A stretch of DNA of 64,000 nt from Mucilaginibacter lappiensis. GTDB taxonomy: Bacteria > Bacteroidota > Bacteroidia > Sphingobacteriales > Sphingobacteriaceae. The stretch spans positions 250,410 to 314,409 of the forward strand of contig NZ_FTMG01000008.1 in the NCBI RefSeq assembly GCF_900155965.1. Direction: 5' to 3'. The notes beneath the pieces were generated by a model that made no database searches, was not told the DNA's origin, and saw only the letters and a program-made list of their open reading frames with translations. Position numbers and translations under genes: made by a program. Shown in pieces: positions 11,112 to 59,313 of the stretch; within the stretch, counting starts at the first letter, position 1; each line of letters starts with the position of its first letter.

Positions 11112-11146
11112 TTAATATTTGTATATTTTGTTTTTAAGTGTAAAAA

Positions 11147-11177
11147 AAGGAAACGCGTATCAATTGCGTGTTTCCTT
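11147..11177 (-). terminator. Intrinsic terminator, minus-strand orientation, next to dispersed element copy A
   Basis: Arms AAGGAAACGCGT and GCGTGTTTCCTT (12 bp including wobbles) surround a 7-base loop. A run of seven A on the plus-strand left side gives a T7 tail in the minus-strand transcript, so it terminates minus-strand transcription. It may also cap plus-strand readthrough from the esterase gene. Confidence 0.6.
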
Positions 11178-11258
11178 AAGGTGAGTGTTCAACCGCAGTT
11201 TTGAACTTTTTTATGGAGGATTTGAAGAAATTAACTACTATAGATCGTCAATTATAAA
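11174..11258. repeat. Dispersed element, copy A
   Basis: The stretch CCTTAAG...CCGCAGTTTT...TTATGGAGGATTTGAAGAAA...CAATTATAA recurs at 40612-40689, 50194-50283 and 59029-59115. Read on the plus strand it encodes a short C-terminal-like peptide ending MEDLKKLTTIDRQL and a stop; this copy has a one-base deletion upstream of that ATG. On the minus strand it leads into the terminator hairpin at 11147-11177. Confidence 0.75.
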
Positions 11259-11287
11259 AGATCTGATGCTGTCCTCCTGACTTATTA

Positions 11288-40437: not shown

Positions 40438-40689
40438 CAGGCGCGCTGTAAACCTTAACGAGAAATCGAACTACAAAAAATAGGTTAATTGCACTCCTGA
40501 TACACTTTTTTAACCGTTCAGGAATTTCTCTGCTAAAATCGAACTAAGAAAACCTCATTGTAATTATTTGATTAACAGATTTTTACTAGCGTAAACACCT
40601 ATATGTTGTCTCCTTAAGTCCGACCGCAGTTTTCGAACACATTTATAGAAGCTTTGAAGAAATTGACGTCAATAAATGTTCAATTATAA
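40438..40689. repeat. Dispersed element, copy B (extended form)
   Basis: The 250-base segment from CAGGCG...GTAAACCTTAACGAGAAA to CAATTATAA matches the extended copy D at 58828-59115 over most of its length; the last ~78 bases (40612-40689) match copies A and C. On the plus strand it still reads PQFSNTFIEALKKLTSIN before a stop. The hairpin is degenerate and there is no T-run. It lies ~110 bases beyond the 3' end of the minus-strand sigma-factor gene. Confidence 0.8.
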
Positions 40690-40800
40690 ATGGATAATCT
40701 ACCACTCTTTTATAATTGAATATTAATAGATTGTTAAGCAGTTTATTTCAGAATATTGCCCAAGTAGATCAAAAGTTAAAGGACATAGCTGGTATAAAAT

Positions 40801-50042: not shown

Positions 50043-50168
50043 GTAATCAGGCGTGCTTTTGTTGAAAATTATAATTATAATAACTTATTTTTAGTAATTC
50101 TCGAACTCTTTTTTTTCTCGAAATTCAATATAATAGCTTGTTAATACGAATGTTATAGGGAAAAATAG

Positions 50169-50196
50169 AGAAGACGTTCTTTGTAGAACGCCTTCT
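50169..50196 (-). terminator. Intrinsic terminator for the minus-strand Cus operon
   Basis: On the minus strand AGAAGGCGTTCT and AGAACGTCTTCT (one mismatch, 4-base loop) are followed by CTATTTTT. It lies ~90 bases beyond the stop of the last adaptor gene, after dispersed element copy C. Confidence 0.75.
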
Positions 50197-50283
50197 TAAG
50201 TGACCTTGCGACCGCAATTTTCGAATACCCTTATGGAGGATTTGAAAAAAATGGCTTCTATAAATGATGTATTGGTGAATTAG
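50194..50283. repeat. Dispersed element, copy C
   Basis: Matches copies A, B and D from TTAAGTGACCTTGCGACCGC through TTATGGAGGATTTGAAAAAA. The plus-strand frame reads VTLRPQFSNTLMEDLKKMAS, then a short tail and stop at 50281-50283, 3 bases from the 3' end of the minus-strand adaptor gene. Together with the hairpin at 50169 it forms the 3' region of the Cus operon transcript. Confidence 0.8.
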
Positions 50284-50286
50284 CGA

Positions 50287-51537
50287 TTACATTTTCATAT
50301 CAGCCATATTGTCTCCACCGTTCTTAAATATCGCCTCACTATTTAACAAATAAGCCCCGTTGGTGACCACTATGTCTCCAGCGTTTAAACCAGAAAGAAC
50401 AGGTACATAGCTCTGATTGCTATTACCTGGTTTTATCATCCTGGATGAAAAGCTGCCGTCGGGATTTTTGACCCATACCTGGCTACCTTTTCCATCGATT
50501 AAAATAGCAGAAACAGGTACAGCTAAAGCACGGCTGCTACCATTGCCAATAGAAATATATGCCAGCATCCCGGGTCTAATCAGGCCTTGTGGATTAGTGA
50601 TACTAATCCTGATTAAATTAACTTTGGAGGCATTCGACAATTCGGGATTGATAAATTCAACTTTGCCATTAATGATTTGTCCGCCTAAATCAGGAAAGGA
50701 TACGCTTACCCGGTCATTTTCTTTATAACTGTTTGTTTCACTGGCATACAGCTGGGCTTCTACCCATAAGCTGTTTAGAGCTTGTGTTTTTAATACAGAC
50801 ATCCCTTCGGTGACGTAATCTCCTTCATGTACCAGTATTTCACTAACGGTTCCAGCGACTTTACTCAATATTGTTGTCGTTGCAGATACTTTTCCGGATG
50901 CTGCGATATTCCTGATCTGTGCCGGAAATAAGCCCCAAAGTTGTAGTTTGTTTTCGGCAGCACTGATAAGCTGCTGGTAATCCACATCCGGGTTATGCAG
51001 TATTTTTTCCTGCTGCCTGGCCAGCAAATATTCTTTTTCAGCTTCCTGCAGATCTTCACTGTAAATGGAATAAACGGGCTGTCCCATGGCTATTTTTTCA
51101 CCCGTAGTTCTGACAAACAATTGCTGCACCCGACCTGGTATCCTTGCGCTCAGCTCTTCCGATTTATTATCGTCGGTGGTTACTGTTCCGGTCAACGTTT
51201 TTTCGCTGCCTACATTTTCTTCCTTAACCGTATCCGTTCGTATGCCTGCCAATTGAATCTGTGTGGCTGTCAGCCTGATCTTATTTTCGGACATATCCAT
51301 ACCATTCCCGCTCATTTCCACTTTGATCAGTTTCATGCCACAGATCGGGCAGTTACCCGGATGATCTTCATGGATCTGGGGATGCATGGAACAGGTATAA
51401 TAAGCTTTGCTTATTGCCTTAGCAGCGGTAGCTTTCGGTTTTTGCGTACATGCTGTAAAAAGTACAGCTGTTAATATCATAAAGGATAGGAGCGCAGCTG
51501 CGCTCAATACCCAGAAACGTTTCTTTATATTAATCAT
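50287..51537 (-). CDS. CusB-like RND metal-efflux adaptor with heavy-metal-binding domain (second adaptor)
   Basis: 416 residues; the ATG at 51537 overlaps the stop of the preceding adaptor gene by 8 bases (ATGATTAA), showing translational coupling. Residues ~45-75 form a heavy-metal-binding domain (YYTCSMHPQIHEDHPG, CPICGMKL) that presents Cys, Met and His ligands. Adaptor features follow: ARIPGRVQQLFVRTTGEKIA (lipoyl half), LHEGDY-like second half (ILVHEGDYVTEGMSVL) and the barrel domain (VSFPDLGGQIINGKVEFINP). N-terminal hydrophobic helix with VLFTAC-type lipobox. Last gene of the operon. Confidence 0.9.
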   Translation of the reverse strand: MINIKKRFWVLSAAALLSFMILTAVLFTACTQKPKATAAKAISKAYYTCSMHPQIHEDHPGNCPICGMKLIKVEMSGNGMDMSENKIRLTATQIQLAGIRTDTVKEENVGSEKTLTGTVTTDDNKSEELSARIPGRVQQLFVRTTGEKIAMGQPVYSIYSEDLQEAEKEYLLARQQEKILHNPDVDYQQLISAAENKLQLWGLFPAQIRNIAASGKVSATTTILSKVAGTVSEILVHEGDYVTEGMSVLKTQALNSLWVEAQLYASETNSYKENDRVSVSFPDLGGQIINGKVEFINPELSNASKVNLIRISITNPQGLIRPGMLAYISIGNGSSRALAVPVSAILIDGKGSQVWVKNPDGSFSSRMIKPGNSNQSYVPVLSGLNAGDIVVTNGAYLLNSEAIFKNGGDNMADMKM

Positions 51538-52786
51538 GACCTTGCGTTTTAATAAAGCTTTCACTATCTGTTAAATATTGGGCATTGGATGCCAGGCTGT
51601 CCGTCACGGATAAACCTTTTGTAATTTGTATTTCGTTATTATAAATAATGCCGGTACTTACCTGATGAGCCTCGTAGGACGCACCGTTTTTTAACCAGGC
51701 AATTTTGGTCTGCCCCAAATCAACCAGCGCAGATCGGGGGACCCATAAACCGCTTGCGCCGCCGGTTTGTATAGTCGCTTTGACAATACTGTTCACTTTT
51801 AGTTCATGATTCATATTATCGATATAAACCCTGATGCTGGTTGTTTTATCGCCTTCCTGTAAAGTCGGCTCTATAAAATTAACCTTACCCGTAATGGTCT
51901 TACCTGGCAGATCCGGCAGCGTGATCGCAACTGTCTGGTTTAATTTTAATCCAAAAATAGCTGAGCGATCAATTTTAATGATAGCCCAAAGCCTATGCGG
52001 GTCTACCACATTAAACAAATTCTGTCCTTTTTCAACATACATGCCTTCTTTGATGGATAGCGGCAGGTTAGTTGCAAAATCGGACTGCGCTGATGTTTGG
52101 GCTGCGCTTGCCATCTGGCTATGCGGCATATCATGTACATGCCCATCATAAGCGCTATATACAGACAGTCTATAAAAAGCTCTCCCAGTTTTAACAACCT
52201 GGTTAACCTGTTCAGATGTCATGCCCAGTAGTAATAATTTCTGTCTTGCTGCATTAATTAACCCGACCTCTTGTACAGAGTTTTTTGTCAGGTAGATCAA
52301 GTCTTGCTGAGCGGTAACCATATCAGGGCTATAGATATCGAAGATACGCTGACCCCGATGGATTTCCTGGAAGGTATATTTGATATACAGTTTTTCGATA
52401 CGACCGGAAAAACGCGAAGCGATATTGTTAAACGTGCGTGTATCAAAGTCAAGGTAACCCTGGGCTGAGACCGCTGTTGGTACTTCCTTTTCTTTGGGTA
52501 CAATAGTTTTGATTGTTGATAGCACCGAAGAATTAACCGATTGCAAAACGGTATTCAAGTTGATACCTGAGCCCTCACTGACCTGACCTGATTTCTTTAC
52601 CAGCGTCATACCGCAAATGGGGCAACTGCCGGGATGGTCTTCCAATATCTGCGGGTGCATCGGGCAGGTATATTTAACATTAGTTTTGACCTGCACTTTA
52701 GCTGCTTTCTGTTTTTGATCAGAACAGGAGGCAAACAGTAACAAGCCCGACAGTAAACTGATCATTATGATTTTAATATTTTTCAT
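51530..52786 (-). CDS. CusB-like RND metal-efflux adaptor with heavy-metal-binding domain (first adaptor)
   Basis: 418 residues, lipoprotein (LFASC). The heavy-metal-binding domain at ~38-66 reads KYTCPMHPQILEDHPG...CPICGMTL. The adaptor core includes ASRFSGRIEKLYIKYTFQEI, KEGMYVEKGQNLFNV and ITLPDLPGKTITGKVNFIEP. CusB-type adaptors take Cu(I)/Ag(I) or related metals and hand them to CusA. It overlaps the upstream TolC gene by 4 bases and the downstream adaptor by 8, so all three are co-translated. Two consecutive adaptors in one system are unusual. Confidence 0.9.
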   Translation of the reverse strand: MKNIKIIMISLLSGLLLFASCSDQKQKAAKVQVKTNVKYTCPMHPQILEDHPGSCPICGMTLVKKSGQVSEGSGINLNTVLQSVNSSVLSTIKTIVPKEKEVPTAVSAQGYLDFDTRTFNNIASRFSGRIEKLYIKYTFQEIHRGQRIFDIYSPDMVTAQQDLIYLTKNSVQEVGLINAARQKLLLLGMTSEQVNQVVKTGRAFYRLSVYSAYDGHVHDMPHSQMASAAQTSAQSDFATNLPLSIKEGMYVEKGQNLFNVVDPHRLWAIIKIDRSAIFGLKLNQTVAITLPDLPGKTITGKVNFIEPTLQEGDKTTSIRVYIDNMNHELKVNSIVKATIQTGGASGLWVPRSALVDLGQTKIAWLKNGASYEAHQVSTGIIYNNEIQITKGLSVTDSLASNAQYLTDSESFIKTQGHD

Positions 52787-54045
52787 TTGTTGTGATTGTT
52801 TAATGTCAGTGCAGTGGTTTCATTTTCACGTTCATAAGCCACCTGTAAGGTTAAAAGCTCCTGCAAACGGTCTAAAGCGCTCATTCTTGACATTTGCAGG
52901 TCTTTAATTACAATTAATACGGATGGCAGGTCGCCTGTATTCTGATCATAGGCCAATAATGCTGTTTTATAACCATTTTGTAAGGCAGGAATGATGTTTT
53001 GCTGATAGTTGCTGATCTGCTTTTTCTTGCTGCCCATATCCGTTCTTATACTGGCCAGTTGCCCCTGGGCCTGGTTAAGCGCATCCATTTTCCGCTGTTG
53101 TAATTCTTCTACTTCGTAGCGAATACCTTTAAGATTAGCCTTATATTCTTTAGATGCCCATGGAACGATAGGTATCGTGACAGATGCCATTAAGATATAT
53201 TGATTGGCATAACCGCCATAGCTGATCATATGTGCAGCTTGAATCCCAAAATCGGGCTTGCGTTTGCTGTATTCAACCTTTGCGTTTAAAGTTTGTAATT
53301 CAATGTTCCTGTTAATGCTTTTAATATCGCTCCGGGTATTTGCTAATGTCGCGGTATTGGTTAGGGTACTTTCATATTCTCTTAACGTAATCGCAGTATC
53401 CACTGTAAAAGTAGTTTGCTTATCCCTGTTCATCAGCGTATTGAGCATGATGTTCTTTTGGGTGATCTCGGTGTTCAATTGATCACGGATATTGTCCAGC
53501 TCGTATAGATCCGCTTTAGCTTTATAAATATTACTTAGCTTTTCTTTGCCATAGGTCAACCGGATGTTGGCGTCTTTGAGCATATACTCCAACAGGCTTT
53601 GCGAATGCTGCAATAGAGCCAACTTTTTCTCCAGTACTACTCGCTCATAATAATATTGCTTAGCCTGCGCTACCAGTTGATTTTTTAGATAGTTCTTATC
53701 TTCTGCGGTTACTTTGGATATTCCTTTCATGTAATCTTCTTTGGCCTTTAACTTTGCTGGATTAATAAACATTTGTTCGGCCTGGATCATAAATGAACCT
53801 CCGTTGGGGCTAAATTGGTAGGGAACCTGGTACTGGCCCGCACTGATCTTCGGTGCATTCAGGTTTTTTGCCCCGGTTGCGTAAGCGTCCTGTGCGCTGG
53901 CTTTTGCAACTAAAGCCTGCAATGCCGGGTTGTCGGCCACACGCGCAACAACACTATCTAAGGGCAGGCGCTGTATTTGCGCTTTTGCTGACAGGTATGT
54001 AAAACAGGCAAACAGCGTGACTATAAATTGATATTTCGTTTTCAT
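52783..54045 (-). CDS. CusC-like TolC-family outer-membrane protein
   Basis: 420 residues with a signal peptide ending LSAKAQ. It carries the long heptad-like helices of outer-membrane efflux proteins (KLALLQHSQSLLEYMLKDAN, YEVEELQQRKMDALNQAQGQ) and strands such as PDFGIQAAHMISYGGYANQY. It is not a lipoprotein, unlike the OMF of the other RND system in this window. The gene is 4 bases after the CusA C-terminal ORF and overlaps the first adaptor by 4 bases. Confidence 0.88.
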   Translation of the reverse strand: MKTKYQFIVTLFACFTYLSAKAQIQRLPLDSVVARVADNPALQALVAKASAQDAYATGAKNLNAPKISAGQYQVPYQFSPNGGSFMIQAEQMFINPAKLKAKEDYMKGISKVTAEDKNYLKNQLVAQAKQYYYERVVLEKKLALLQHSQSLLEYMLKDANIRLTYGKEKLSNIYKAKADLYELDNIRDQLNTEITQKNIMLNTLMNRDKQTTFTVDTAITLREYESTLTNTATLANTRSDIKSINRNIELQTLNAKVEYSKRKPDFGIQAAHMISYGGYANQYILMASVTIPIVPWASKEYKANLKGIRYEVEELQQRKMDALNQAQGQLASIRTDMGSKKKQISNYQQNIIPALQNGYKTALLAYDQNTGDLPSVLIVIKDLQMSRMSALDRLQELLTLQVAYERENETTALTLNNHNK

Positions 54046-54049
54046 GATT

Positions 54050-55942
54050 TTACTCCTTTACTTCTAATACTTCCAGCTTGCCATATTTTTTCAACTCATA
54101 CTCCTTTACCATCAAAAAGATAAGTGGAGTAACCAGTAAAATATGCGTGGAAGAGGTTAAAACGCCACCGATCATAGGCAATACTATAGGCAGCATCACA
54201 TCACTGCCTGTCCCGTTTGCCCAAAGTACCGGCACTAACCCAAATAGGGCTACGCAAACCGTCATGAGTTTTGGACGTAAGCGTTTCACCGCGCCATTCA
54301 TGACGTAAACCTGCAGGTCTTCTTTGGTGATGTTTTCCTTTGAATTACCTTTTAAGGCTATCAATTGCTGCATGGCATCATTCAAATAGATCACCATCAC
54401 GATGCCTGTTTCTACCGCTATCCCAAACAGGGCGATAAACCCTACGGCTACAGCAACAGATAAATGAACGCCAAAGAAATACACCATATAAGCGCCGCCA
54501 ATCAATGCGAAAGGGATGGAGATGAGGCTAAAAAATGCTTCGCGGATAGAATGAAAGGCAAAATACAAACAGGCAAAAATGATGAGCAGTACGATAGGTA
54601 ATACCAGCTTTAAGGTATGCTCGGCACGGATGAGGTTTTCATACTGCCCGCTCCATTCAATAAAATAACCTTTGGGCAACGATTTGACCATGGTGTTTAA
54701 TCTTTCCTGGGCTTCTTTAACTGTACTGCCCAGGTCCCGGTCACGTACATTGAACAATACCGTCCCCCTTAATAATGCATTTTCCGATTGTACCATTGCA
54801 GGGCCATCACTAATTTTTATATCAGCAACAGATGATAAAGGGATTGGGCCATTGTTAGGGGTTTGCACCAGGGTCCTTTTGATCGCGTCGAGGTTATTAC
54901 GGTAATCCTGTGCCAACCGCGCGTTTACACTAAATCGCTGCCTACCTTCAACGGTAGTGGTCAAATTCATACCGCCTAATGCGCTTTCCACCACCTCATT
55001 CACATCATCTACGTTCAGGCCGTATCTGCCAATAGCATCTTTATTGACCTGTATATCCAGGTATTTGCCACCGGTGATAGGGTCAACATACAGATCCTTT
55101 ACCCCGTTAATGCCTTGCAGTGCCTGTTTCATCTGGCCGGATAAAGCATAGATCGTATCCAGGTTCTGTCCGTAAACTTTTAAACCTACATCGGTACGGA
55201 TACCTGTCGAAAGCATGTTAATCCGGTTGATGATCGGTTGGGTCCAGCCGTTCACCACACCGGGTATCTGTAGTTTGGCGTTCAGTTCATTGATAATATC
55301 TTCTTTTTTTATGTCTTTCCGCCACTCGCTTTTGGGCTTTAACAGGATAATCGTTTCGGTCATGCTGATCGGCGAATTATCGGTAGCGGTATTGGCCCGC
55401 CCTGCTTTACCCAAAACATTTTTTACTTCGGGTACACTTTTAATGATCTTATCCTGTACCTGTAAAAGCTGTTTGGCCTGTGAGTTGGATACATCGGGTT
55501 GTGTTACCGGCATAAACAGGATCGTTCCTTCATCCAAAGGCGGCATAAATTCACTACCTAAACTTAGCAGCAGGGGTATGCTGATCAATAAAGCAACCAG
55601 GTTGATACCGATAGTTGTTTTACGCCAGGTAACGCACCAGTTAAGGATCGGCCGGTATAGTTTTTCTAATGTATTGGTTAGCGGGTTTCGATCGTCTGTT
55701 CTCAATTTTCCTTTCAGGAAAAAAGAGATCAGCACCGGGGCCAGTGTTACCGCAAGGATAGCATCGATAGCCAGTATAAATGTTTTTGTCCAGGCCAGCG
55801 GGCCAAACAATTTACCTTCCTGGCCTTCTAGTAAAAATACGGGCAGAAATGAGGCAACAATAATAAGGGTGGAAAAGAATACACCACGGCCCACCTGCTT
55901 GCAGGAAGCTTCTATAATTTTTATTCGTTCTGCTGTGCTCAT
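54050..55942 (-). CDS. cusA: CusA-type heavy-metal RND permease, C-terminal half (separate ORF)
   Basis: 630 residues starting MSTAERIKIIEASCKQVGRG, corresponding to CusA from just before TM5 to the end. Features: FLPVFLLEGQEGKLFGPLAW, EFMPPLDEGTILFMPVT, GIRTDVGLKVYGQNL, GNGTGSDVMLPIVLPMIGG-like C-terminal repeat (WANGTGSDVMLPI). Its ATG lies in the stop codon of the N-terminal ORF (ATGA), in the -1 frame. Together the halves total ~1055-1070 residues, near a full CusA (~1040). It may be a real two-chain permease, a frameshift mutation or programmed frameshifting. Confidence 0.9.
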   Translation of the reverse strand: MSTAERIKIIEASCKQVGRGVFFSTLIIVASFLPVFLLEGQEGKLFGPLAWTKTFILAIDAILAVTLAPVLISFFLKGKLRTDDRNPLTNTLEKLYRPILNWCVTWRKTTIGINLVALLISIPLLLSLGSEFMPPLDEGTILFMPVTQPDVSNSQAKQLLQVQDKIIKSVPEVKNVLGKAGRANTATDNSPISMTETIILLKPKSEWRKDIKKEDIINELNAKLQIPGVVNGWTQPIINRINMLSTGIRTDVGLKVYGQNLDTIYALSGQMKQALQGINGVKDLYVDPITGGKYLDIQVNKDAIGRYGLNVDDVNEVVESALGGMNLTTTVEGRQRFSVNARLAQDYRNNLDAIKRTLVQTPNNGPIPLSSVADIKISDGPAMVQSENALLRGTVLFNVRDRDLGSTVKEAQERLNTMVKSLPKGYFIEWSGQYENLIRAEHTLKLVLPIVLLIIFACLYFAFHSIREAFFSLISIPFALIGGAYMVYFFGVHLSVAVAVGFIALFGIAVETGIVMVIYLNDAMQQLIALKGNSKENITKEDLQVYVMNGAVKRLRPKLMTVCVALFGLVPVLWANGTGSDVMLPIVLPMIGGVLTSSTHILLVTPLIFLMVKEYELKKYGKLEVLEVKE

Positions 55943-57213
55943 GATCTTTCTTTTTGTTGTGCAAGAGATAAGTTCCGGTGCGAGTTTTCAACCATGACAA
56001 TGCCATTATCTACAATCACCCCGATTGCCAGCGCAATTCCTGTTAAGGACATAATATTAGAACTGATGCCAAATGCATTGAGTAGGATAAAGCTTGTTGC
56101 TATGGTGATGGGGATCTGTATGATAATGCTTAAAGCGCTTTTAAAACTCAATAAGAAGAGGATCACAATAATAGATACCGTGATCATTTCTTCGATAAGC
56201 GTATGTTTCACAGAACCTACCGCGCTTTCGATGAGTTCGCTTCGGTCATAGGCGATCTTGAATTTTATACCTGCCGGAAATCCTTTTTGAATGTCGGCCA
56301 TTTTATCTTTCACTGCATGAATAACTTTATCTGCATTCTCGCCGTAGCGCATTACCACAATACCGCCAACCGCTTCACCGTTTCCATTCTGGTCAAAAAT
56401 ACCCAGGCGCTCATCACCGCCCATTTGTACCGTAGCGATGTCTTTGACTTTTACCGGTATGGTATTGATTACGCCAACAGAGATGTTTTCTACATCTGAT
56501 AAGGTCTTGATATAACCGAGGCCACGAACGATATAGCCGGTGCCGTTCATTTCAAACTTGCGGCCACCTACATCATTGTTATTGCTTTTTACCGCTTTCA
56601 AAATCTGTGATAGCGGTATATTATAGTAATTGAGTTTATGCGGGTCGATAGTGATCTGGTATTGTTTTTCGAAGCCGCCAAACGAGGCCACTTCGCTAAC
56701 GCCCGGCACGGTCTGCAGCCCTAGTTTTACATACCAGTCCTGCAAGGCCCTTTGTTCGCCTAGGTCCATCCCCTTAGCGTCCAGCGTATACCATAAAATA
56801 TGGCCAACCCCTGTGCCGTCCGGCCCTAAAGTCGGTGTGATCCCTTGCGGTAATAACCGCTGTGCGTAGTTCAGTCTTTCGAGTACCCGGCTCCGTGCCC
56901 AATATACATCGGTTTTATCGTCAAAAACGATATAGACAAAACTCATCCCGAACATGGAAGTAGCACGAATGGCTTTTACTTTAGGGATCCCCTGCAAATT
57001 GCTCACCAGAGGATAAGTTACCTGATCTTCCATGATCTGCGGGCTGCGGCCCTGCCATTCGGTAAATACGATCACCTGGTTCTCTGAGAGATCTGGTATG
57101 GCATCGATAGGGTTTTCCCTGACCGCGTAAATGCCCCATGCGAAAAGAGCAGCAGCGATCAGTAAAACAATATACCTGTTTTTTAAAGACAGGGAAATGA
57201 GTTGATTAATCAT
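55939..57213 (-). CDS. cusA: CusA-type heavy-metal RND permease, N-terminal half (separate ORF)
   Basis: 424 residues from ATG 57213 (MINQLISLSLKNRYIVLLIA); ATG 57264, directly after the preceding stop, would add 17 residues. It holds TM1, IDAIPDLSENQVIVFTEWQG, LQTVPGVSEVASFGGFEKQY, and TM2-TM4 with the proton-relay Asp in IALAIGVIVDNGIVMVENS. It stops in the cytoplasmic loop after TM4 (LAQQKERS, then TGA). Reading on in the -1 frame continues smoothly into TM5 in the next ORF. Confidence 0.9.
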   Translation of the reverse strand: MINQLISLSLKNRYIVLLIAAALFAWGIYAVRENPIDAIPDLSENQVIVFTEWQGRSPQIMEDQVTYPLVSNLQGIPKVKAIRATSMFGMSFVYIVFDDKTDVYWARSRVLERLNYAQRLLPQGITPTLGPDGTGVGHILWYTLDAKGMDLGEQRALQDWYVKLGLQTVPGVSEVASFGGFEKQYQITIDPHKLNYYNIPLSQILKAVKSNNNDVGGRKFEMNGTGYIVRGLGYIKTLSDVENISVGVINTIPVKVKDIATVQMGGDERLGIFDQNGNGEAVGGIVVMRYGENADKVIHAVKDKMADIQKGFPAGIKFKIAYDRSELIESAVGSVKHTLIEEMITVSIIVILFLLSFKSALSIIIQIPITIATSFILLNAFGISSNIMSLTGIALAIGVIVDNGIVMVENSHRNLSLAQQKERS

Positions 57214-57264
57214 CGTAATAGGTTTAATAAGCCCATTCACCGTCTGGCGGACAGGCTCAATCAT

Positions 57265-57510
57265 TTACATTTTCATTTTGTCAGCTTTCTTTTTTGCCGG
57301 TTCCTTTTTTACCAGTGTCATGCCACATTTGGGGCATTTGCCAGGTTTGTCGCTCAGCACATCCGGATGCATAGTACAGGTGTATTGCACTTTTGCAGGC
57401 TTCACTTTATTCGTTTTAGTAGTATCGGGTACCATGGTGGTGGAATGTGCGGCAAACACGGTTGCGGCAGAGAACAAGATGGCAACAGCCATTAACATTA
57501 CTTTTTTCAT
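57265..57510 (-). CDS. Secreted heavy-metal-binding-domain protein
   Basis: 81 residues: signal peptide (MLMAVAILFSAATVFAAH), a linker, one heavy-metal-binding domain (YTCTMHPDVLSDKPG, CPKCGMTL) and a lysine-rich tail. It is likely a periplasmic metal chaperone, the functional counterpart of CusF, feeding Cu/Ag (or Co/Zn/Cd) to the RND pump. Its stop codon directly touches the alternative cusA start (TAAATG). Confidence 0.85.
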   Translation of the reverse strand: MKKVMLMAVAILFSAATVFAAHSTTMVPDTTKTNKVKPAKVQYTCTMHPDVLSDKPGKCPKCGMTLVKKEPAKKKADKMKM

Positions 57511-57558
57511 GAGTTTTAACTGAATTATGGTTTGATGATTAATTGCACGTTATTATAA

Positions 57559-57981
57559 TTAAGCGGGATCTACTTTTGACAGGTAATAATTGATCCTGTA
57601 CTGTTGATGAATAGCATCGTAAACCAATAGGTCGCTGTCTATTCTAAATCGGGTGTCCAGAACATCAAAATACCGCCCGTCCCTGTAGATCTTTTTTAAG
57701 TTTTCTAAGGTAAATAGATACACCTGATCAGATCCCTTTACGCTGAAGTAATGGGTAACAATGGGTTTAAAAAGATTGAGCTTGTCGCCAGGACGCTGGC
57801 GTTCGTAGATAATAATTGCGCCACGCCCTAGGATTTTGAAATCAGACAGTTTCGGATTCTTAATAGCAATAAGTGAATCTTGAATTGAAGTAGTATTTGG
57901 AGTATTAAAGCTACCTGCTTGCGCCAATGACTTTGAAAAAAGTAGGGCAAGCAAAATGATTGAAAATTTGAAATTTTTCAT
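57559..57981 (-). CDS. Hypothetical secreted protein, 140 aa
   Basis: Signal peptide MKNFKFSIILLALLFSKSLAQ, then a mixed sequence with IKNPKLSDFKILGRGAIIIY, FSVKGSDQVYLFTLENLKKI and a C-terminal FRIDSDLLVYDAIHQQYRI. No metal-ligand cluster and no known family recognised. It is 48 bases upstream of the metal-binding protein gene on the same strand, so it probably belongs to the Cus operon or its leader. Function unknown. Confidence 0.65.
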   Translation of the reverse strand: MKNFKFSIILLALLFSKSLAQAGSFNTPNTTSIQDSLIAIKNPKLSDFKILGRGAIIIYERQRPGDKLNLFKPIVTHYFSVKGSDQVYLFTLENLKKIYRDGRYFDVLDTRFRIDSDLLVYDAIHQQYRINYYLSKVDPA

Positions 57982-58115
57982 TTTTTAAAATATAAGTATG
58001 CAGATGCTGAAATCGTTCAGCAATAAATTGATTGATAGAAATATTGATTAATATATGGAATAGTCTAATTTGCCTGGATGGCAATTAAACAATAGGGGAA
58101 GAGGTCCCGGAGGTA

Positions 58116-58496
58116 TTAAATTCTGTAGTTGGAGTAAAGGATATAAAGCGGATCGCGCTGGACAGGAGGGGCCTGGCTATTGTAGCCGTTTACCTCCTTT
58201 AAAGTTATTCTCTCTGCTAAAGCAGGAATAGAAAATACTGGAATAACTACAGCAAACGAGTTTTTTAGAGTCAGATCGGTTTTGGCCGAAACATGGTTGT
58301 CTTTTACTTTGAAGTTTGCTTTAACAGTTTTGCAGCAATCGGAACCGCTCGTTGCCTTGCAGTCACTTTTTGATGCCGAACTAGCAGACAGAGATACACT
58401 GGCTAATTTACCACAGCAATAAAACTTGTCTATGGTAATTCCATAAACCGATGCCGTGTAGATCAGGAGAAGTAATATGACTGCTATTCTTTTCAC
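58116..58496 (-). CDS. HYC_CC_PP-type Cys-rich small protein
   Basis: 126 residues with a signal peptide (MKRIAVILLLLIYTASVYG), the motif FYCCGKLASVSL, DCKATSGSDCCKTVK and a C-terminal APPVQRDPLYILYSNYRI. The order YC...CC...PP matches the HYC_CC_PP family often seen next to metal-efflux genes in Bacteroidota. Role unknown, but the paired cysteines suggest metal binding. It heads the minus-strand metal-resistance block. Confidence 0.75.
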   Translation of the reverse strand: MKRIAVILLLLIYTASVYGITIDKFYCCGKLASVSLSASSASKSDCKATSGSDCCKTVKANFKVKDNHVSAKTDLTLKNSFAVVIPVFSIPALAERITLKEVNGYNSQAPPVQRDPLYILYSNYRI

Positions 58497-58649
58497 GATG
58501 CTAAATTAAGGCAATTCTTTGATCCATTTTTATATAATTATGGTAAAAGTTTATATTTTATCGATATTTTAATGTGGGCATGTTAGTCGATCATATAAGT
58601 GATGATTAAAAGCAGATCGTTAGTTTGATTTTGCCAACCTGCACAGATT

Positions 58650-58920
58650 TAAAAAACACACGAGATTTCTATAGAAATAGATAATGTGTGTTATGATAAG
58701 AGGATATCCGTTAAGCGAGCAATCAAGCTTTTGGCAAAATAGGGCATTCAGGTTGATGATGATGAAGCTGCAATTATATTGAACTTTCTTTATTTGGTCG
58801 AAAAGACCCATCAATATGATGGCAATTCAGGCGTTGTAAACCTTAACGAGAAATCGAACTGTAAAAAAAATAGGTTGATCGCATTTCTGGTAAACTTTTT
58901 AAACCGTTAACCTTTAACGG
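58650..58920 (+). pseudogene. Decayed small helical protein gene
   Basis: One plus-strand frame reads RISVKRAIKLLAK, an in-frame TAG (58740-58742), then GIQVDDDEAAIILNFLYLVE, KTHQYDGNSGVVNLNEKSN and KKNRLIAFLVNFLNR before TAA. The first part resembles small helical proteins (RAIxxLAKNGIQVxxxEAxxILxFLY) that I associate with Bacteroidota mobile elements. The second part is the conserved beginning of extended copy D. No intact gene remains. Confidence 0.45.
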
Positions 58921-59115
58921 TTCAGGAATTTCTTTGCTAAAATTGAACTACAAAAGCAATTGTTGTAACAATCTGCCTAACAGGTTTTTATTAGTATGAA
59001 AAAAAGATGCAACACGTATGTGTTGTCTCCGTTAGTGACCTTGCGACCGCAGTTCTCGAACTCTTTTATGGAAGATTTAAGGAAACTGGCTTCGATAAAT
59101 AATAATATAGCATAA
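58828..59115. repeat. Dispersed element, copy D (extended form)
   Basis: Best-preserved copy. The 5' part (CAGGCG...GTAAACCTTAACGAGAAA, TTCAGGAATTTCTTTGCTAA) matches 40438-40611. The 3' part (59029-59115) matches copies A, B and C. It contains an intact 39-codon plus-strand ORF at 58996-59115 (MKKRCNTYVLSPLVTLRPQF, then SNSFMEDLRKLASINNNIA) where A, B and C have a stop before VTL. Minus-strand reading gives core, hairpin, T7. Confidence 0.8.
59009..59026 (-). terminator. Hairpin with T-run in copy D, minus-strand orientation
   Basis: CAACAC and GTGTTG enclose a 4-base loop. The plus strand has seven A just to the left (58999-59005), giving a T7 tail on the minus strand. It probably ends transcription from the UpxY-like gene side. 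Confidence 0.55.
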
Positions 59116-59313
59116 AACATCCGAATGTGATTGGCCAGTTTTTATTTAATATCATAGGTGTAATAATATAAAGCACGACATTATTGAATACTTATAATTT
59201 GATAATAATCCAATAAGCAAAACGTTTGCCGCGGAGGGATATATTCATAATTTGCCCATAACATAAGTTTTAACACTTATTAATGGTTGTAAAAAGCATG
59301 CAGTAACTCTTGC

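Follow-up and report, generated by a model that had tools for sequence, protein, structure and literature searches.

Repeats in a Mucilaginibacter genome as probable junction scars of large serine recombinase islands inserted serially at tRNA-Lys

In the SCCmec-type elements, Ccr large serine recombinases form composite islands at the 3′ end of a single gene, the protein gene rlmH. Tandem ssrA-specific islands are found in Dehalococcoides, with the serine recombinase DsiB, which is related to CcrB (McMurdie 2011, extracts of PMC3146451); 16 of the 31 islands have an integration module, all repeats lie within 100 kb downstream, and insertion is in the T-loop of the tmRNA target with a 20-bp direct repeat of the RNA gene. 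The tRNA islands of the Islander class use tyrosine integrases and displace a fragment of their target (extracts of PMC4383910). For integrative elements of the IME and ICE kinds with serine recombinases, short identical crossover bases, accretion and cis-mobilizable elements have been described, most serine-recombinase IME sites lying within genes and tyrosine-recombinase ones at 5′ or 3′ gene ends (extracts of PMC5704250, Figure 1 legend for the sites). The main text of a large survey of large serine recombinases (LSRs), as excerpted, does not contain the word "tRNA" (PMC10083194), and the excerpt of Integrase-On-Demand treats tRNA sites of integrases in general (PMC12884075). Among titles and the beginnings of abstracts in one open-access library, no paper was found on serine recombinases reading into an antisense tRNA or on an attachment site within a coding tail, and none there paired Mucilaginibacter with a serine recombinase.

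The window, that is the whole stretch of 64,000 nucleotides analysed here, corresponds to positions 250410–314409 of contig C24 in a 6.79-Mb genome of the genus Mucilaginibacter (39 contigs), and contains an array of repeats that is read below as a series of LSR-island junctions. The SCCmec target is a protein gene, unlike the tRNA genes used here, and matches to the NCBIfam CcrB model were far under its cut-off (114 and 111 versus 900 bits). The Dehalococcoides islands are the closest system in print, sharing with the present case the serine recombinase, the 3′ end of an RNA gene as target and multiple tandem islands (PMC3146451, in extract); unlike there, ten tRNA specificities are used, the repeat is the recombinase's own coding tail, and identity to tRNA-Lys covers 6–7 bases. 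Neither the T-loop target of tmRNA nor a 20-bp ssrA repeat was found, the target being tRNA-Lys. As in the Islander class, the island lies on the 3′ side of an intact tRNA at one end; such a tRNA was seen at the array end in relatives, the window's genome having its tRNA-Lys on a separate contig. Unlike the Islander class (PMC4383910, in extract), the enzyme is a serine recombinase and what is displaced is its tail. The repeats share with antisense tRNA-Lys only GTGACC(T) and have no displaced tRNA 3′ fragment at the far end; a true partial copy of tRNA-Lys occurs at one other junction (G045 C8:25859). The short identical crossover bases, the accretion and the cis-mobilizable elements of serine-recombinase IMEs and ICEs are points of likeness, and unlike most serine IMEs of that account (PMC5704250, in extract) the present family uses tRNA 3′ ends.

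The four dispersed copies in one orientation claimed by the original prediction (A to D) were confirmed. A blastn search of 58700–59250, the region of copy D, against the window gave plus-strand matches at 40443–40677 (copy B, E 5e-37), 50199–50268 (copy C, E 1e-13) and 11192–11230 (copy A, E 5e-6); a degenerate core pattern with up to three mismatches had three matches in the window (B, C and D) against 0.00 expected from 100 dinucleotide shuffles, and a profile search agreed. Copies B and D have about 270 columns in common at 71% identity (blastn). When the search was extended to the whole genome and to relatives, as had been proposed, tails were found in relatives, and in this genome the encoded tail occurred at six places only, all on the same strand within 75 kb (C24 234528–309521). 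The two additional copies, E1 (C24 234528) and E2 (C24 237344), lie about 16 and 13 kb to the left of the window start, and the contig ends 11 kb to the right of copy D. One further DNA match, at C30:541492–541689 (L013), outside the array, corresponds to the upstream part, a small-gene remnant, without the tail. The blocks between copies measure 3–29 kb and contain different genes, several of them with whole operons. A position just beyond the 3′ ends of minus-strand genes is not a general property, because the genes preceding E1 and E2 are on the plus strand and another plus-strand gene ends just before copy A.

Each copy could be divided at a putative junction. In copy A a terminator-like hairpin with a T-run on the minus strand (11142–11178), which would be the former terminator side of the junction, is followed by a degenerate LSR C-terminal tail on the plus strand (11180–11263; nhmmer E 5.5e-16). 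Copy B consists of a pre-junction sequence (40443–40617, plus strand), homologous to the upstream part of copy D by blastn and alignment, in which half of the hairpin is lost, and of the tail VRPQFSNTFIEALKKLTSINVQL with its stop codon (40618–40689, plus strand; profile limits of the core 40618–40696). Copy C has a minus-strand hairpin at 50168–50197 and the tail VTLRPQFSNTLMEDLKKMASINDVLVN with a stop at 50200–50283 (plus strand; core 50198–50279). Copy D begins with a decayed small gene (58695–58874, plus strand) that has one in-frame stop and is 63% identical to an intact 64-aa ORF of G045, continues with a minus-strand hairpin and T-run (58998–59034) and ends in the tail VTLRPQFSNSFMEDLRKLASINNNIA with a stop (59035–59115, plus strand; core profile 59033–59108), which is like that of the intact LSR of G438. 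The minus-strand hairpins of A, C and D folded better than shuffles (z −4.1, −5.0 and −2.8, respectively; copy B, z −0.1), in agreement with the predicted stem-loops and T-runs, and the predicted difference between stems also held, no hairpin sequence being common to all copies. The Rfam search of the window gave no match at gathering score, so that assignment to a known RNA family was not borne out, and no tRNA was found in the window by scanning. The stretch 58892–58918, around AAACCGTTAACC and part of a palindrome, had dozens of further matches among those listed for this genome and relatives, each of about 26 bases with about 89% identity (E about 0.3), and is perhaps a separate genome-wide short repeat.

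The suggestion that differences between copies fall in third codon positions was borne out in the 27 ungapped of 34 copies, which are related to one another and thus not independent. In codons 6–20 the minor-base frequency was 0.119 at position 1, 0.049 at position 2 and 0.294 at position 3 (permutation p 0.00025). Single changes in the tail frame were synonymous in 83 and non-synonymous in 44 cases, the ratio being reversed in the other two frames (33:111 and 10:121). The tail frame thus shows protein-level constraint. Many copies have a stop codon immediately 5′ of GTG (TTAAGTGACC), so that in those copies translation from the hairpin side does not reach the tail, which need not be translated in all LSR types; no intact LSR gene with a hairpin of this stop-before-GTG type was found. 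Of the 149 genomes of the genus, 20 contained the tail (36 matches, with open frames of at most 72 codons), and a consensus query run on a sample of 399 family genomes found it in 51. The DNA pattern matched 16 stretches of named genomes in Mucilaginibacter, Pedobacter, Parapedobacter, Sinomicrobium, Flavobacterium and unclassified Bacteroidetes. Clusters in one orientation also occur in G124 (contig C11), G030, G014 and G007. In viral contigs the tail pattern had 0 matches and the LSR search found no relative; phage and plasmid records gave only recombinases of less than 60% identity, those listed being at 23–30%.

A single LSR with an intact tail, that of G438, was found in the two tail searches (149 genus and 399 family genomes). 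Counted from the first ATG, its 549-codon open frame encodes 533 aa; the protein ends in REVVYPDQMSNSFIEDLKKLASLFK before the stop codon, has Resolvase and Recombinase domains above the cut-off and a zinc-ribbon below it, and contains an inverted repeat in its coding end. It is about 45% identical to the Lys-type LSR, a 515-aa protein encoded directly behind tRNA-Lys and convergent with the tRNA in G004, G018 and G126 (PF00239, PF07508 and PF13408 all above cut-off in G004 and G126). In these three genomes the LSR frame passes through a hairpin (...KKDRKTGVKTDLRSK in G004) into GTGACC and then into antisense tRNA-Lys, which provides the C-terminus VTWEGFEPSTH or VTWERIELSTH. The repeats have the same frame (GTG ACC) and the same GTGACC, followed by VT(L/V/F)RPQFSNSFMEDLKKLASIN, and two types of junction sharing GTGACC can thus be distinguished: LSR–GTGACC–tRNA-Lys in G004, G018 and G126, and hairpin–GTGACC–tail in the repeats. 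The hairpin of copy E1 is identical to the G004 LSR end in 40 of 48 bases (stems GACCAC/GTGGTC in E1 and GACCGC/GCGGTC in G004) and in the LSR frame encodes KDHKPGVKSDLWSFVT versus KDRKTGVKTDLRSKVT, as read by eye. G007 has a decayed LSR immediately upstream of one of its repeats, and a fragment of an LSR separates its last repeat from tRNA-Lys.

LSR relatives were present in at least 98 of the 149 genus genomes (E ≤ 1e-15). At 70 loci, made up of 30 and a further 40 chosen among the next best relatives listed, the LSR 3′ end overlapped or abutted an antisense tRNA in 50 cases (22 of 30, counted by hand from a table, and 28 of 40, counted by script). A frame running right through the tRNA was taken as overlap, and the tRNA-His cases overlap by 2–3 bases only. 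Ten specificities were represented, namely Lys, Met, Arg, Leu, His, Asn, Val, Pro, Phe and Glu. The next closest LSRs among the matches listed, those of G048 and G029 at tRNA-Met, had no tail match. The Lys-type LSR itself is absent from the window's genome, where its best relative among the matches listed is 41% identical and lies on contig C27. The domains of an LSR element, present in the relatives' LSRs, were found in no gene or remnant around the C24 copies: tblastn over C24:215000–320897 (E ≤ 0.01) detected no LSR body remnant near the six copies, and in a profile search of the 1.5 kb upstream of each copy the 30 best matches listed were all control stretches.

A small gene, mostly of about 50–60 aa, precedes 27 of 30 LSR genes and overlaps the LSR start by 4 bases in 18 (distinct loci, E ≤ 0.01, with a profile built from a single sequence; two matches at L069, none at L091, L093 and L094). 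Its pattern is EKRNITPEKAVEILKKNG..EAEKILDFMYFLAKL (loci L065–L094 and L053:5509–5703), and neither Pfam nor NCBIfam gave a match to the G045 form. What precedes the hairpin in copy D matches this small gene and not the LSR body, and is a remnant of the small gene. The gene may be regarded as a candidate for a directionality factor or a regulator.

The clusters of different genomes have as common neighbours a tRNA-Lys(CTT) and a gene for an ABC-F ATPase (ABC-F named by eye), and all 10 genomes in which that neighbourhood was scanned have a tRNA-Lys(ctt) near the ABC-F gene. In the stretches fetched from eight relatives, which had been chosen for holding repeat matches or the tRNA, all 21 repeats on tRNA-Lys contigs lie on the 3′ side of tRNA-Lys and on the opposite strand (seven in G124, four in G030, three in G014, two each in G007 and G147, and one each in G053, G004 and G126). 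The count covers matches with E ≤ 1e-4 on a contig holding tRNA-Lys, plus one from the genus-wide tail search; it omits L043:18845 (weak, E 0.009, other orientation) and two weak matches of L052, and it does not extend to contigs without tRNA-Lys (G045 C8, G124 C8, G147 C74 and the window's C24) or to G076, in which the tRNA was unscanned. Exceptions lying far from tRNA-Lys on tRNA-Lys or ABC-F contigs are G030 C1:879292, G076 C1:749131 and G004 C1:237692, and further copies are on contigs without a scanned tRNA-Lys (G124 C8, G147 C74 and C191, G018, G078, G127, G065 and others). Since tRNA-Lys of the window's genome is on another contig, C38, the link between array and tRNA-Lys in this genome would hold by analogy.

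Further elements at this tRNA-Lys were noted at L054 and L064 (G045 and G147) and at L053 near 5860: a tyrosine recombinase is present in them, as judged by Pfam for L054 and by a Phage_integrase match at G147 C80:192887, and G045 has a partial copy of tRNA-Lys at a far junction. In G124 contig C8 (L041:4362–4746) two tails about 300 bp apart stand directly behind a 596-aa tyrosine integrase near tRNA-Pro, together with a convergent ORF that is helix-turn-helix-like by eye, two integrase types thus occurring at one place.

Each copy is most probably the reciprocal junction (attR) of an LSR island inserted at the 3′ end of tRNA-Lys(CTT), a reading to which a probability of roughly nine in ten is given. 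The repeats are so interpreted because they have the same frame and GTGACC as the Lys-type LSR, and because the G438 LSR ends in such a tail; together with the anchoring at tRNA-Lys in relatives, these junctions make it most likely that the array was built by LSR islands inserting one after another, and that their recombinase genes have since been lost. The LSR gene would carry the attachment site in its own 3′ end, as codons of the terminator-like hairpin, GTGACC and the tail (VTLRPQFSNSFMEDLKKLASINVQL). The antisense 3′ end of tRNA-Lys likewise reads GTGACC, and we infer that recombination takes place there, probably within these few bases. The LSR body would be set against the tRNA and end in the antisense-tRNA peptide VTWERIELSTH, the island's hairpin would then stand behind the tRNA, presumably as its terminator, and the tail would remain at the island's far end, fused to the hairpin that formerly stood behind the tRNA. 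The next island would enter between the tRNA and the previous island, so that junctions would accumulate on the 3′ side of tRNA-Lys, all pointing the same way. Their hairpins would differ, since each derives from an earlier LSR end, and their tails would be alike in kind, each being supplied by the island that came next. At the six copies of this genome the LSR bodies would have been lost by deletion, with small-gene remnant, hairpin and tail left as scars between cargo blocks, of which the Cus efflux operon is one; any present mobility would be conjectural. Such a mechanism would account for the common orientation, the constant tail, the variable hairpins, the codon-like constraint in sequences that are not genes and the clustering.

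The original prediction had offered either a mobile terminator module or the final part of a multicopy protein gene that had decayed, and had held that no feature type known to it explained the element. The second half came close, in view of the G438 LSR tail and the codon constraint, and the copies do resemble a describable feature, attachment-site junctions of integrative elements at tRNA-Lys. The terminator half was right in that the hairpin is real, but where an intact Lys-type LSR is present the hairpin sits at the junction of recombinase end and tRNA. That the copies are a mobile or duplicated 3′-UTR or terminator RNA module spreading between minus-strand gene ends is very improbable: the minus-strand hairpin and T-run of A, C and D would fit it, but the window has no Rfam match at gathering score, the hairpin sequence is not common to all copies, the conserved part is under plus-strand codon constraint, copies also follow plus-strand genes, clusters are tied to one tRNA locus and the intact LSR of G438 ends in such a tail.

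An integron-like cassette array, in which the repeats would be sites of a tyrosine integrase and the cassettes would move singly, stands little chance of being the explanation. A common orientation and cargo blocks bounded by repeats would be expected from it, and two G124 copies adjoin a tyrosine integrase near tRNA-Pro; against these points, the blocks of 3–29 kb include several with whole operons, the repeat belongs to the same type of sequence as a serine recombinase gene end, and the LSR–tRNA junctions make it unlikely. No Phage_integrase match, and hence no IntI-type integrase beside the array, was found on C24, which ends 11 kb past copy D, and tyrosine integrases were rejected as the cause, the seven matches of the genome all being on other contigs. 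It is scarcely credible that integration did not recur and that the copies are remnants of one ancestral recombinase gene, spread through tandem duplication or homologous recombination. The loss of LSR bodies beside the copies of this genome would agree with such multiplication; it is opposed by hairpins that differ between copies, by intervening blocks with different genes and by two blocks that occur in other genomes beside repeats with other neighbours. The blastn table points towards several tail lineages per array, with the nearest relatives of each in other genomes.

The cargo of the block between C and D (50280–58561, no strand assigned) comprises CusB-like adaptors, an outer-membrane factor, a split CusA-like pump and two ORFs without a Pfam match. 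It is homologous to a G030 segment over 8.3 kb at 84% identity and lies between repeats in both genomes; the homology stops at the left repeat and on the right falls short by about 0.5 kb in the window's genome and about 0.25 kb in G030. The core flank of this genome pair is 85–92% identical, above the 84% of the Cus block, so recent transfer of the block is not supported by identity, and common descent, with neighbours that changed over time, explains the block no less well than transfer. The block on the E1 side is 92.6% identical to G045 over 1.2 kb and the tRNA-Lys neighbourhood 74–82% (a 0.1-kb tRNA match left out), which favours acquisition of this block by transfer. The CusA-like RND pump at 54050–57264 consists of two ORFs overlapping by 4 bases (ACR_tran profile 2–419 and 420–1020), and the pump ORFs of G030, 95–97% identical, are split likewise, which suggests that it may be a real two-gene pump.

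It is possible, although doubtful, that tRNA-targeting LSRs of the Bacteroidota carry the attachment site in their own frame in such a way that integration rewrites the C-terminus and the exchange of tails acts as a switch. If so, the conserved tail (QFSNHFLQDLKKLA) would be swapped for the antisense-tRNA peptide, the next integration would restore the full tail of the displaced enzyme, an integration-competent free form would alternate with a quiet integrated form, and the same few bases would serve as protein code, attachment site and tRNA terminator. The scars would provide a ready-made marker for mapping the islands of Mucilaginibacter and its relatives; the island cargo in the present case includes a metal-efflux operon as well as genes that, judged by eye, are SusC/SusD-like. 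A serine recombinase family would have switched among many tRNA genes, a habit usually tied to tyrosine integrases, and may thus offer natural sets of recombinase and site pairs with defined targets, together with a testable idea, regulation by exchange of the enzyme tail.
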